Assembly (NCBI GenBank): GCA_030426085.1
Contig: JAUHYW010000089.1
Span: forward strand, 1 to 37,232
Direction: 5' to 3'
Origin: a bacterium
GTDB lineage: Bacteria > Myxococcota_A > Bradymonadia > UBA7976 > UBA1532
Length of the DNA stretch: 37,232 nt
The notes under the pieces were generated by a model. That model saw only the letters and a list, made by a program, of their open reading frames with translations. It did not search any database and had not been told where the DNA came from. A program made the position numbers and the translations under genes. Of the stretch, positions 13,902-37,232 are shown piece after piece. Positions within the stretch are counted from its first letter, which is position 1. Every line of letters starts with the position of its first letter.

Positions 13902-14789
13902 TCAGGCGGCCAGGCAGCCCGGGCTGAACCAGATCGTCTCCGACCGGGCCCGCCGGCGGCCCTCGGGCGAGGTCTGGTAGCCGGCCCCGCCTCGGCACGC
14001 GTCCCACCGGTAGGTCGTCCAGCCGGCCGGCACCTCCCGCCCATCCTCGTAGCCGCACACGGCGATCCTGAGACGAGGGTCGTCGCCCACCTCGCAGGCC
14101 CAGCGCCAGACCTCGCCGGCGATGTCGCCCTGCTCGGCGGCGTAGGTCACCCCGACACCGTAGGGCGGATCGAGGAAGAGCCCGGTGCGTCGGCGCGCCG
14201 GGCCCAGCCCGAGCGCCGTGCGGCTTCGAAGGCGGGTCCAGTCGCCGCAGACGACCTTCACCGCCCGCACCCGCTTGCTGACCCACCGCAGCCGATCGGC
14301 GCCGCACCGCGCATGCACGCCGCTGTTGCTGCCGATGTTGGGCAGCCGGGGCCCGGTCGCCCCGTCGCACCAGGTCGAGCCGATGGTGGCGGACTGGCCG
14401 TGCAGCCACCAGCCGGCGAGCTCGACGTCGAAGAAGCTGGGGTCGCACCGGAGCTGCTCGGCGAGTTGGCGGCGCCGGGCCACCAGCACCGACTGCCGAG
14501 CGGCCATGTCGACCTCGATGACCGGGGTGCACGCCGCGGCGACCACCGACTCGACGTCGGCCTGGATGGCCCGCCAGGCGTTCGCGAGCAAGCCGTCGGC
14601 GTCGTTGACGATCTCCCGGCCGCCGCTGTGGTCGCCGGGGCGGTAGAGCAGGACGGCGCCGGCGCCGAAGAACGGCTCGACGTAGCTGTGGACGTCGCCG
14701 AAGCGCCGCCACACCTCGGCGCCGACCTGGCGCTTGTTGCCGAAGTAGGGGAACGGAGTTCGGACTCGCGGCGCCGATGAGCACTTCAT
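13902..14789 (-). CDS. D12-class N6-adenine DNA methyltransferase
   Basis: The 295-residue protein fits the Dam/D12 class: PFPYFGNKR at 12-20, SAM-binding VEPFFGAGAV at 37-46, and catalytic DPPY at 207-210 (in GLFLDPPYGVGVTY). It should transfer methyl from S-adenosylmethionine to adenine N6; the recognition site cannot be read from sequence. No restriction enzyme is adjacent, so it looks like an orphan phage methylase for protection or regulation. It is the last gene of a minus-strand group with the 91-residue gene and the repeat protein; 78 bases separate it from the former. Confidence 0.88.
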   Translation of the reverse strand: MKCSSAPRVRTPFPYFGNKRQVGAEVWRRFGDVHSYVEPFFGAGAVLLYRPGDHSGGREIVNDADGLLANAWRAIQADVESVVAAACTPVIEVDMAARQSVLVARRRQLAEQLRCDPSFFDVELAGWWLHGQSATIGSTWCDGATGPRLPNIGSNSGVHARCGADRLRWVSKRVRAVKVVCGDWTRLRSRTALGLGPARRRTGLFLDPPYGVGVTYAAEQGDIAGEVWRWACEVGDDPRLRIAVCGYEDGREVPAGWTTYRWDACRGGAGYQTSPEGRRRARSETIWFSPGCLAA

Positions 14790-33194: not shown

Positions 33195-34286
33195 TCAGCC
33201 GAGGACGTCGGTGATGGTGTAGATCCCGGTGCGATCGAGCAGGTGGAACGATTCGCAGTGGAGCATGCCGTGCTCCTTCGAATTGGTGCGGACCTGGTAC
33301 TCGCCGGCGACGTAGGTCATGCCCGCGAGCCGGGCGCGGAGGTCCGCCTGGGGCACGGTGCCCGGATCGGCGAGCACCGCGCCGTGGGCGGCCTTGAACT
33401 CGGGCAGGTCCTGGAAGAGGTTGGCGGGCCGCATGATGTGCACCGCCCCGGCCGCGACCACCGGGATGACGAAGTCCTCGGCGGGGCGCTCGGGATCACG
33501 CCCGATGCCATCCATCTCCGTCCGGGCGAACACGATGTGGTCGCCGAGGATGTAGTCCTTGAAGTTCTTCGGGTTCTGGTGAGCGGCGTCGACGACGAGG
33601 CGCCTGACGCCGAGCTGCGGCTGCAGATACAGCTTGACCAGCGAGTCGTCGGTGTGAATGCCGTTGACGTTGTCGGCCAGCTTGTCGACCACGCTCGGGT
33701 GGCGCCGGACGAAGTCGTACATCTTGACGTTGAGGTACACGGTATCGGCGTCGCTCGCCCGCGCGCCCGCGAGCATGATGGCGTCGAGGTCATCCGCGTC
33801 GTCGATCGCGTTGCCAGCCCGGCTCACGCTGTCGGGGTGGAAGGCGGCCGCGCCCTGCGCGATCCAGGCCGCGTGGCGGAGCGCGGAGCCGACCCGGAGT
33901 TGCCGCGCCATCCACGCCGCCTGGCGCGCCTGATACAGCAGCGCGTTCTTGAACGAGTCGCGGCCGCCCAGCTGCACCTTCGCCGCGTCGTCGAAGTCGA
34001 CGACGTCGAAGTCCCGGTACAGGGGGCACACGTACTCCGTCGGGCTGAGCGGCGGGGTGTTGCTGCGCACGCCGTCGGCCTTGCTGACGGCGGGGCGGAT
34101 CTCCTCCTCGGTCAGGGCCGGGTAGTCGGCGGGGTCGTCCGACTCGCGCTGAAATGTGCCGCTGGGCTCGCCGGCGACCCGACCCCAGAGGGTGAGGTGG
34201 GCGAACTTCCGGGCGTCCTTCGCGTGGTCGTAGCCCCCGATCGCGCCGGGGACCAGGGTGTCGATGGGGCGTTCTGTGGTCGCCAT
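33195..34286 (-). CDS. Major capsid protein (HK97-fold, gpE-type candidate)
   Basis: The 363-residue protein has the size and layout of HK97-fold capsid proteins: an N-terminal arm, a first conserved block LYRDFDVVDFDDAAKVQLGG, a helix of QAAWMARQLRVGSALR, and an internal D-A-DTVYLNVKMYDFVRRHPSVVDKL segment in which a strand-helix step reads as the family NTLVLG-type motif. Further C-terminal are DYILGDHIVFARTEM and EDFVIPVVAAGAVHIMRPAN, then GEYQVRTNSKEHGMLHCESF. It follows protease/scaffold and decoration genes in the standard order. The ATG has ACGGAGAA upstream, a good ribosome site. Confidence 0.8.
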   Translation of the reverse strand: MATTERPIDTLVPGAIGGYDHAKDARKFAHLTLWGRVAGEPSGTFQRESDDPADYPALTEEEIRPAVSKADGVRSNTPPLSPTEYVCPLYRDFDVVDFDDAAKVQLGGRDSFKNALLYQARQAAWMARQLRVGSALRHAAWIAQGAAAFHPDSVSRAGNAIDDADDLDAIMLAGARASDADTVYLNVKMYDFVRRHPSVVDKLADNVNGIHTDDSLVKLYLQPQLGVRRLVVDAAHQNPKNFKDYILGDHIVFARTEMDGIGRDPERPAEDFVIPVVAAGAVHIMRPANLFQDLPEFKAAHGAVLADPGTVPQADLRARLAGMTYVAGEYQVRTNSKEHGMLHCESFHLLDRTGIYTITDVLG

Positions 34287-34705: not shown

Positions 34706-35308
34706 TCAGCGACCGCGCGAGCTGCGGTAGGCCGCCGCCGCGGCCTTGGCGAAGTCGCCGCCGAACTTCTCGGTCGCGAGTTGGTGGATGGCCGCCGGCG
34801 ACAGCGGGTCGACCGTGCCCTGCGACAGCCCGTGGCTGGTGCGCTCGGCCGGGACCAGCGCCTCGCGCTTGCCCCACTCGGCGAACAGCTCACGGTCCTC
34901 GTCGGTGGCGTTGGGGCTGTGGGCCCGGCGGTGGTCGGCGAGGTACCGCGTCCGGTCGGTCGGGCTGACCGTGCGGCTCGCGAGCAGCTCGGCGAAGCCC
35001 CGCTCGCCGTCCGCGAGGTCGAGCCGCGCCTGCAGCGCGGCGAGCTGGGTCTTGTGCTCGATCGTGGCGGCCGCCAGCGCGTGCTGGATCACCTGTTCGA
35101 TCTTGCCCTGCGACAGGTTGGCGCCGTCCGCGGTGCCCTGCGACAGGCTCGCCATCGGCGACCCGCCGGGCATCTCCTCGCCGGCGGGCTCTTCGCCAGC
35201 GGGCTCCTCGCCGGCCGGCTTCATGGCGGCGAGGCACGCCTCGAGCTGGTCGCCCAGCGCCGCGAAGCCGGCCGCCATCATGTCCTTGAGCTGCTGGATC
35301 TCTTCCAT
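34706..35308 (-). CDS. Nested scaffold protein (internal in-frame start)
   Basis: ATG 35308 (Met 362 of the fusion) is preceded by GAGGAGG at 35323-35317 with eight bases between, the best ribosome site in this part of the window. It would produce a separate 200-residue protein with the same C-terminus: MEEIQQLKDMMAAGFAALGD, the (PAGEE) repeat, coiled-coil segments (IEQVIQHALAAATIEHKTQL) and a final helical tail. This is the arrangement of lambda C/Nu3 and Mu I/Z, where a protease gene contains an in-frame scaffold gene. Confidence 0.6.
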   Translation of the reverse strand: MEEIQQLKDMMAAGFAALGDQLEACLAAMKPAGEEPAGEEPAGEEMPGGSPMASLSQGTADGANLSQGKIEQVIQHALAAATIEHKTQLAALQARLDLADGERGFAELLASRTVSPTDRTRYLADHRRAHSPNATDEDRELFAEWGKREALVPAERTSHGLSQGTVDPLSPAAIHQLATEKFGGDFAKAAAAAYRSSRGR

Positions 35309-36391
35309 GTCGGGGCCCTCCTCGGAGCCGTCGGTGGTCGGGTGGTCGGCCCGGGGGTCGCTGAGACGGACGCGGTCCAGCTTCTCGTGGGCCTGTGCGG
35401 GGTTACGGGTGAGAGCGAGGCCGTCCATGAGGATCGAGCCCAGCAGTTGCCGGGTTGCGGGGTGGAACGACGGCCCGGGGGCGATCTCCGGGCTCGACCA
35501 GATGGCGCCGCTCGAGGCGGCGACGTACTCGGCGAGCCCGGGGTTGTAGGCCGGGGCCACGGCGAGGCTCTCGCCACCGTCGACGAGCCAGGCCGCGACG
35601 ACCGTCCCCGCGCTCGGAGGCCGGTGCTCGAGGTTGATCGGGATCTCCTGGCCGGCGTCGAACGCGGCCACGATTGCCGCGAGATCCTCGCGGGTGATGG
35701 TGCCTCGGCGCTCGCCGCCGGGGATGTGGCGCCGCTTGGCGCCGGCCATCACCGTCGCCGCCACCCGCTGATAGATCTCGCCCGTGGCGAGACACCGGAA
35801 CGGCTTTCCGAGTACCCAGCCGTCGGTGAGCTCGATCCCATGGGTGCGCCGGCCGGCTTCGGCCTCGAGGTCGACGCCCCACCGCAGCTCGCGATAGGGC
35901 ACCCGCGCAGCCAGATTCTCTCGGCCGCGACCCAGCTCGAGCACCGCCCGCGCGTCGCCGAGCGCGACTTCGAGGGCCATGGCGGTGCACCCGCCCGACG
36001 GGAGCGGACCCGAGTACTCGCCCGCGCCCACGTAGGCGACCGTCGAGTGGGCGATGAACTCCGGGTGGGTCTCCGGCGTTGGAATCCCGCGTGCGGCGAG
36101 GGCTGCCCGGAGCCAGTCCCGCAGCGTGGCAACGGGGCCGGGGTCGTCGACGAGCAGCACGGCCGCCCGCTGCTCGGTGTCGCCGAGATACTCGACCGTC
36201 GAGCCCAGACGGATCGGGACCGGCTTCGCGGCCCGGGCCACGGCCTCGACGACCTCGAGCACGTCGGCGAAGGGTGCGGTGCACTCCGGCGAGAAGCAGA
36301 GGGTCACATGCGGCGCGCCACGCTGTTCGTCGGGTGGATACTGGGCGGCGCAGGCCTCGGGCAGCCGGATGCCGAGGTAGAGGTCAGGCAT
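34706..36391 (-). CDS. 2H phosphoesterase - prohead protease - scaffold fusion
   Basis: The 561-residue protein has three parts. Residues 1-125 show the two HxT/S motifs of 2H phosphoesterases (2'-5' RNA ligase/cyclic phosphodiesterase superfamily): H28-V-T30 in GAPHVTLCFSP and H115-S-T117 in FIAHSTVAYVG, 87 residues apart as usual. Residues about 180-340 match Mu gpI-type prohead proteases, with PINLEHRPPSAGTVVAAWL (251-269) and the family phrase LALTRNPA (325-332). Residues 362-561 are a charged helical scaffold with (PAGEE)3 and three LSQG motifs. It overlaps the portal stop by eight bases. Whether the 2H domain is enzymatically active is inference from retained motifs. Confidence 0.75.
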   Translation of the reverse strand: MPDLYLGIRLPEACAAQYPPDEQRGAPHVTLCFSPECTAPFADVLEVVEAVARAAKPVPIRLGSTVEYLGDTEQRAAVLLVDDPGPVATLRDWLRAALAARGIPTPETHPEFIAHSTVAYVGAGEYSGPLPSGGCTAMALEVALGDARAVLELGRGRENLAARVPYRELRWGVDLEAEAGRRTHGIELTDGWVLGKPFRCLATGEIYQRVAATVMAGAKRRHIPGGERRGTITREDLAAIVAAFDAGQEIPINLEHRPPSAGTVVAAWLVDGGESLAVAPAYNPGLAEYVAASSGAIWSSPEIAPGPSFHPATRQLLGSILMDGLALTRNPAQAHEKLDRVRLSDPRADHPTTDGSEEGPDMEEIQQLKDMMAAGFAALGDQLEACLAAMKPAGEEPAGEEPAGEEMPGGSPMASLSQGTADGANLSQGKIEQVIQHALAAATIEHKTQLAALQARLDLADGERGFAELLASRTVSPTDRTRYLADHRRAHSPNATDEDRELFAEWGKREALVPAERTSHGLSQGTVDPLSPAAIHQLATEKFGGDFAKAAAAAYRSSRGR

Positions 36392-37232
36392 CGCCGACCA
36401 GCTTGCGGGGGACGCCGCCGGAGGCCGGGTCGTAGTTCTTCGTCGACACCGGCGGAGCCCCCTCGGGCGGGGTCAAGCGCTCGAGCTCGGCGAGCGTGCG
36501 CCGGCCATCCTCGGGGTCGATGTCGGCCAGGCGCATGAGCCGGTCCCAGATGACCGGGAAGCGGGCGATGTTGACCGCCGGCTGCAGCAGGTTGGGCAGG
36601 TGGTTGAGCAGGTCGGCGAGCGGGTCGTCGGCGACGCCGAAGTGCTTGAGCCGGGGGTAGTCGTTCGGGTGCTGCGGGCCGTAGCTCAGGTCGAGCACCC
36701 GCTGAACCGAGCCACCGCCCGGGCGGGGTCGACCGGAGAGGGCGTCGCACCAGGTGTCGAGCACGCGCACGACGAGCTGGGTGAACGCGTCTTGCAGAAC
36801 CTGCCCGACGTTGTAGCTGCCAGTGCCCGAGGTGCCGAGTTCGAGCATGTTGAGCAGGTACGCCGAGAGGATCTGCTCGTAGGCGAACCGCAGCACCGAG
36901 AGGATTCGCTCGGGGTTGAAGGCGTCCTGCCCGACGATCTCGACCCGGAACTCGGGACTGTCGAGCAGGTAGCTCGCTTCGCCGCCGGCGTACTGCTCCA
37001 TCACGCTGACGAAGCGGTCGAACATGTCGTCGAAGTCGGCGTCCTGGTAGATCCCAGTGCCCGCCCGGCGGTCGATGGTCGCCTTCGGCACGCCAACGGC
37101 GTACTTCATAGCGCGGGCTGACGCCCGCAACCCAAGGGCGATACTCAACCGCTGACGGGAGAACGAACACGGCGCCGCTCGGGTAGAGGTCAGGTTGCGA
37201 CATCCAACGACCACCCGAGGCGGCACCGTGAA
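36384..37232 (-). CDS. Portal protein, DUF935 (Mu gp29-like), 5' part outside the window
   Basis: The frame is open to the right edge; the visible part is about 280 residues, so the N-terminal half of a normal portal (about 450-500) lies outside. Portal-like features: GVPKATIDRRAGTG, FDDMFDRFVSVMEQYAGGEA, ILSVLRFAYEQILSAYLLNM, and the family phrase LGTSGTGSYNVGQVLQDAF, followed by YGPQHPNDYPRLKHFGV. Portal dodecamers thread DNA into the head. GTG 37224-37226 is the outermost start in view but is not likely to be the true start. Near the right edge a second frame looks more protein-like, so a +1 frameshift between about 37120 and 37180 is possible. Confidence 0.7.
   Translation of the reverse strand, partial: FTVPPRVVVGCRNLTSTRAAPCSFSRQRLSIALGLRASARAMKYAVGVPKATIDRRAGTGIYQDADFDDMFDRFVSVMEQYAGGEASYLLDSPEFRVEIVGQDAFNPERILSVLRFAYEQILSAYLLNMLELGTSGTGSYNVGQVLQDAFTQLVVRVLDTWCDALSGRPRPGGGSVQRVLDLSYGPQHPNDYPRLKHFGVADDPLADLLNHLPNLLQPAVNIARFPVIWDRLMRLADIDPEDGRRTLAELERLTPPEGAPPVSTKNYDPASGGVPRKLVGDA

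Follow-up and report, generated by a model that had tools for sequence, protein, structure and literature searches.

Results

The window (the whole stretch of 37,232 nucleotides analysed here) carries, downstream of a portal gene and upstream of a gene in the major capsid position, a single open reading frame in which a 2H phosphoesterase domain is joined to a prohead protease and its scaffold. The features of the locus are as follows.

36384..37226, minus strand: portal gene upstream of the fusion, near or across the contig end (phrog_113 portal, E=0.002)
34706..36391, minus strand: fusion of 2H phosphoesterase, linker, Mu gpI-type prohead protease and scaffold; single ORF with ATG start, 561 aa
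35927..36391, minus strand: 2H phosphoesterase domain, residues 1-155 (PF13563, AlphaFold2 model, fold matches)
36302..36310, minus strand: first active-site motif H28-V-T30 (H and T invariant in 4/4 fusions)
36041..36049, minus strand: second active-site motif H115-S-T117 (H and T invariant in 4/4 fusions)
35828..35926, minus strand: low-confidence, probably flexible linker, residues 156-188 (pLDDT <50; insertion point of a WYL domain in the homologue at L010/L024)
35357..35827, minus strand: Mu gpI-type protease region, residues 189-345, with H256 and S299-S300 (hhalign, invariant columns, PF10123 in homologues)
35624..35626, minus strand: putative protease catalytic His256 (invariant; aligned with the His of Mu-like proteases)
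35492..35497, minus strand: Ser299-Ser300 (Ser300 opposite the invariant Ser of Mu-like proteases)
35317..35322, minus strand: AGGAGG Shine-Dalgarno sequence, 8 nt upstream of the nested scaffold start
34706..35308, minus strand: nested in-frame scaffold ORF from Met362 (internal start and Shine-Dalgarno match in 4/4 genes; long helices in the model)
33195..34286, minus strand: gene in the major capsid position, downstream of the fusion (weak phrog_1005 match, E=0.072)

Codon-position GC is alike from the 2H domain through linker and protease to the scaffold (GC3 0.82-0.96), which fits one coding frame. The whole window protein was searched against 95 genomes. In a sister genome of the same genus (G001) the search matched three more complete fusions, as well as a partial copy lacking the 2H domain; the sole other matching genome, G013, gave a weak partial match (E=4.9e-4). 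The three full-length homologues are:

L009 7469-9133: fusion P0002, 38% identical to the window protein
L010 7667-9571 (contig G001:C48; same gene as L024 7218-9122): fusion P0005, 34% identical to the window protein
L011 6718-8391, minus strand: fusion P0003, 31% identical to the window protein

The other fusions are 33-45% identical to P0002. All three sister-genome proteins match PF13563 above its cut-off (2.2e-11 to 3.8e-10) and lie on separate contigs (C25, C43 and C48), which argues against an assembly chimera. The window ORF is confirmed as a genuine fusion of a 2H domain, a Mu gpI-type protease and a scaffold. The preliminary description had read the frame at 34706-36391 in just this way, with both HxT/S motifs in an N-terminal 2H part joined to a Mu gpI-type protease and scaffold; both halves of that reading are borne out by the 561-aa frame and by the family, protease and nested-start evidence given below. 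In P0005 a WYL domain (PF13280, E=4.9e-16) stands between 2H domain and protease and may have a sensing role; the domain scan was run on P0004, the same frame with two additional codons. The contig of P0002 also holds a perfect 2818-bp tandem duplication (L009 8150-13785, G001:C25) with its junction inside the protease gene. The second protease copy has no 2H domain and an unrelated start, and the duplication could be a recent event or an assembly artefact.

The stop of the upstream portal gene overlaps the start of the fusion. In the sister genome, the genes upstream of the three fusions match PF06074 (Portal_Mu, 2.9e-14 to 3.7e-19) and the genes downstream of all three match phrog_1005 (major head, 7e-11 to 2e-19), so that four divergent fusions share one place, with a Mu portal gene before and a major capsid gene after. 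The prophage structural genes share their strand with a DNA methyltransferase gene at 13902-14789 of the window (phrog_56, E=2e-19). The window also contains rtcR, rtcB and rtcA at about 8-12 kb (RtcB confirmed by search, rtcR and rtcA named by reading), and a connection between this locus and the fusion had been raised as possible. In G001 none of the contigs with RtcB matches (C4, C18, C50 and C97) is among those of the fusions (C25, C43 and C48), although incomplete contigs could hide a distant linkage. On this evidence the neighbourhood looks like coincidence.

In a Pfam scan, residues 16-121 of the window protein match PF13563 (2_5_RNA_ligase2) above the family cut-off (E=1.1e-8). LigT_PEase scores 21.2 bits, under its cut-off of 23.3, and no curated ThpR/LigT-type model was matched in NCBIfam at E up to 10. 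Two HxT/S motifs spaced 75-100 residues apart occurred in 73 of 20,000 shuffles of residues 1-160; the spacing by itself is therefore suggestive, and the 2H claim rests on the family match. In the alignment of the four fusions (31-45% identity) H28, T30, H115 and T117 are invariant in every copy, and the chance of all four falling among the 21 invariant of 159 positions is 2e-4. Routine loss of the motifs in homologues, which the preliminary description had named as counting against it, was not found among these copies. Both HxT pairs are also kept in three other phage 2H domains, which belong to large or head-region proteins. The host has a ThpR-like protein of its own (L055, contig G000:C37, about 1322-2019, between cinA-like and recA-like genes), which lacks both HxT motifs. 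Thus 2H copies in this lineage can decay, which counts for the kept motifs of the fusions mattering.

The best AlphaFold2 model of residues 1-188, built on four sequences, has a mean pLDDT of 72.6 and a pTM of 0.69, a confidence that is that of one model of five, the remaining four having mean pLDDT of 38-52. Ten-residue block means are 61-94 over 2H residues 1-155, and residues 156-188 are below 50. The full-length model shows the same 2H secondary structure and long helices in the scaffold, with a poorly folded protease (pLDDT <50). Foldseek found its best PDB match for the 2H model in drCPDase (5h7e, E=2.4e-6). VIA-align gave the closest superpositions with Usb1 (Z 15.2, rmsd 2.6, 149 aligned) and bacterial CPDase (Z 15.0, rmsd 3.9, 154 aligned), followed by the rotavirus VP3 PDE (Z 13.2, rmsd 3.0, 136 aligned) and LigT (Z 13.1, rmsd 3.2, 147 aligned). 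Actinophage proteins annotated as 'RNA ligase' are among the top rows from a viral structure library, as are one 'capsid morphogenesis protein' and one 'putative structural protein'. Sequence and model together place the domain in the 2H superfamily, with its two HxT/S motifs predicted on the paired lobes of a bilobal alpha/beta fold. The structural comparison with Acb1 and LigT proposed in the preliminary description thus recovers a predicted 2H fold with its paired active site. For Acb1 (PDB 7t26, 7t27 and 9q2g) the shared fold stands, but the match is weaker than to Usb1, CPDase or LigT (Z 9.7-10.1, rmsd 3.2-3.5, 125-130 aligned), and by sequence a PDB search with the window protein gave one weak match (E=2.1 over 25 residues). 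Beyond the shared fold we find no support for Acb1 as the specific identity of the domain. Acb1 is a standalone phage enzyme, unlike the window fusion.

The order of the fold matches bears on a reading in which the cargo is directed at RNA: a Usb1-like exonuclease or 2',3'-cyclic phosphodiesterase would trim host anticodon-nuclease ends, after injection or during late infection, and have no signalling role. Usb1, CPDase and LigT all rank above Acb1, and an RNase is one of two proposals made by Iyer et al. for 2H domains fused to MuF or portal proteins, with which it fits (text of PMC5512222). Against this, fold rank does not fix the substrate, as all 2H enzymes share the fold, and the model of residues 1-188 rests on four sequences. 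We regard this as a real but rather doubtful possibility.

The protease half of the window protein by itself has no significant Pfam or PHROG match, PF10123 included. In the homologues PF10123 (Mu-like_Pro) is matched twice above cut-off (E=6.9e-9 and 4.1e-7) and once just below it (6.1e-5), and two of the three match head maturation protease PHROGs. When the four-fusion alignment was compared by hhalign with five Mu-like proteases from other genomes (probability 93.6, E=2.1e-7), H256 and S300 came to lie opposite their invariant His and Ser; H256 and S299-S300 are invariant across all four fusions. These alignments point to a protease of the Mu gpI type (PF10123-related) with conserved His and Ser. 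At the border of protease and scaffold, each of the four genes has an internal ATG or GTG with a Shine-Dalgarno match of 5-6 nt (residues 362, 365, 459 and 375). The match is the longest of its gene in two cases and tied with others in the remaining two. A match of at least 4 nt precedes 19 of the 107 internal start-type codons in the four genes together; the evidence for a nested start is therefore the shared position, not the Shine-Dalgarno match alone. It argues for an in-frame nested scaffold gene with a candidate internal translation start, an arrangement that the KS10 genome paper describes for KS10 and "many other phages" (passage in PMC2628397).

A search with the 2H alignment (E up to 1e-6) returned two of 57 class genomes and two of 377 sampled phylum genomes, all of this genus. 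Mu-like_Pro is present in 22 of 282 phylum genomes, at 27 places; PF10123 does not detect the protease of the window, which lies outside this count. With the 2H profile, three of the 27 places carry a 2H domain, all in G001, whose fourth place is the partial copy without it; at the 23 places outside G001 none was found within the stretch examined around each. On contig G007:C184 a protease of this type has its N terminus, the position of the 2H domain, truncated by the contig end. In 50,697 phage records (tblastn) the window protein, P0002 and P0003 had no match; P0005 had 13, all around its WYL region, the window 2H domain alone had one (Rctr197k, 32.9% identity), and the protease segment alone had three, all with E of 1 or worse. 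Narrow pattern scans found no such fusion in viral contigs; of two scans of genome contigs, the first found none and the second only the three sister-genome fusions. The search for the same fusion in phage genomes, as suggested earlier, turned up none of this type in the phage records and three in the sister genome. Among the genomes searched the fusion is found only in this genus, and its number is a lower bound because the scans were narrow. As a known defence system the fusion was rejected (no PADLOC model at E up to 10).

Since most Mu-like proteases of the phylum do without it, the 2H domain is dispensable for assembly as such. This speaks against a structural relic, in which the fold would be kept as an assembly or targeting module (e.g. 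binding portal or nucleic acid) and have no catalysis. Attachment to a structural protein would suit such a role, and non-catalytic 2H proteins exist in eukaryotes; however, the four catalytic residues are invariant in 4/4 copies at 31-45% identity and recur in the three other phage 2H domains, so we consider a relic decidedly unlikely. The restriction to one lineage likewise argues against a 2H domain active only inside the procapsid, e.g. clearing RNA from the head before DNA packaging. Fusion to protease and scaffold would place the domain there, and the 2H fold fits RNases, but we know of no phage that needs its head cleared of RNA, and this is to our mind highly improbable.

The four-sequence 2H profile scored Rctr197k_173 at 72.6 bits, two ThpRs at 22.4 and 19.6, OneinaGillian at 18.0 and ReqiPepy6 at 17.2. 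The closest 2H relative found is therefore Rctr197k_173 (KX853510), a phage protein of polyvalent type. Capture of the host ThpR as origin of the 2H domain was rejected (19.6 bits versus 72.6; the host copy lacks the motifs). Rctr197k_173 has 2039 aa with InPase and other domains, a C-terminal 2H domain and no protease domain match, whereas in the window fusion the 2H domain is N-terminal and joined to a protease. Its multi-domain pattern corresponds to the polyvalent proteins of Iyer et al. By its domain content the window fusion fits the same description, with at least two disparate domains in one late structural-region protein (three in P0005, with its WYL domain), as in phage polyvalent or head-delivered effector proteins.

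Discussion

Our tentative interpretation, which we would put a little below an even chance, is that a protease of virion assembly bears a probably active 2H domain at its N terminus, as cargo against nucleotide signals or RNA ends. In its favour are the 2H family and fold, HxT residues that are invariant in four divergent fusions at one place, the kept His and Ser of the protease, the internal scaffold start in 4/4 genes, a closest 2H relative of phage polyvalent type and the cyclase genes of the window's own genome. Counted against it are the fold being nearer to RNA-end enzymes than to Acb1, the presence of a 2H domain at only 3/27 Mu-like_Pro places and the full-length model, which folds the protease poorly. 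The fusion would be made late, directly after the portal. Its C-terminal half would double as scaffold, also made alone from the internal start, and would draw the full-length protein into the procapsid, where the protease would digest the scaffold and probably also cut the flexible linker, releasing the 2H domain. Candidate substrates of this domain are 2'-5' and cyclic phosphodiesters and 2',3'-cyclic RNA ends; most likely the phage would benefit by getting rid of CBASS-type nucleotide alarm signals of the host or of damaged RNA ends. The domain could act around the procapsid, at a late stage in the producing cell, or early in the next cell if some of it stays in the head.

A target of the CBASS type exists in these hosts. 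The window's own genome has three SMODS CD-NTase cyclase genes, and such genes are found in 4/13 family genomes. As two of these are without detected fusion, the co-occurrence shows only that such a target exists. One CBASS-type cyclase gene in the window's own genome adjoins an E1-E2 gene (L071 1572-4336, G000:C47). In the sister genome, a CD-NTase cyclase forms the C-terminal part of a 1336-aa protein (L073 379-4386, G001:C29), which also has a kinase-like match to PD-T4-6 and a start that reads as TIR-like. The prohead protease of phage Bas13 is reported to interact with a CBASS cyclase in E. coli, EcCdnD12, and to stimulate it (Richmond-Buccola et al. 2024, cited from passages of PMC12409349 and PMC11312562). 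With a prohead protease as CBASS trigger, tethering a signal-degrading enzyme to the prohead protease is an attractive idea. The fusion would then be a built-in antidote, its 2H domain tethered to the very kind of protease that triggers CBASS, so that the signal would be broken down at the place and time of its production; in the variant with WYL, a nucleotide-sensing domain would gate the enzyme. We nevertheless think this specific version unlikely.

An active 2H domain would add capsid maturation proteases to MuF and portal proteins as vehicles for enzymatic cargo. Capsid assembly proteins are known to trigger cyclic-nucleotide defence, and the fusion would then make it testable whether phages station enzymes that degrade such signals at the procapsid. 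With its WYL domain, P0005 is a candidate sensor-enzyme-protease protein, and no counterpart was found in the literature on WYL domains and phage proheads.

The window fusion can be compared with several known systems. Its protease with embedded in-frame scaffold in the head region follows the Mu gpI/gpZ type (e.g. KS10 gp28/gp29, passage in PMC2628397); Mu-like proteases elsewhere in the phylum differ in having no detected 2H domain. The text of Iyer et al. (2017, PMC5512222) describes 2H domains fused to MuF or portal proteins, for which RNase activity or degradation of nucleotide signals is proposed, and assemblin-like peptidases at the C termini of some polyvalent proteins. As in those fusions, the 2H domain is joined here to a head morphogenesis protein; the partner is a Mu gpI-type protease with nested scaffold, plus the WYL variant, a pairing not named in that text. 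Among the listed papers and passages on 2H, LigT or 2-5 RNA ligase domains with prohead proteases, the text of PMC5512222 included, there was likewise no 2H–Mu gpI-type protease fusion. In gp22, the capsid morphogenesis protein of Microbacterium phage OneinaGillian (L063 9225-12377, 1050 aa), a single chain matches MuF, 2H and head maturation protease profiles, the MuF and 2H Pfam matches being significant and under the curated cut-offs; a MuF-protease fusion is reported for its phage cluster (passage in PMC7302621). Like the window fusion, gp22 lies between portal and major capsid and combines a 2H domain keeping both HxT motifs with a protease match. It differs in having MuF before the 2H domain, a protease of another family (phrog_18402) and a distant 2H domain (18 bits). 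ReqiPepy6 gp013, adjoining TerL, starts with a 2H domain, and 130 phage records match somewhere in gp013. Together with the cases of Iyer et al., these two show that head-region 2H fusions are already known and that the window fusion is a variant of them; what is new here is the Mu gpI-protease architecture and its WYL version.
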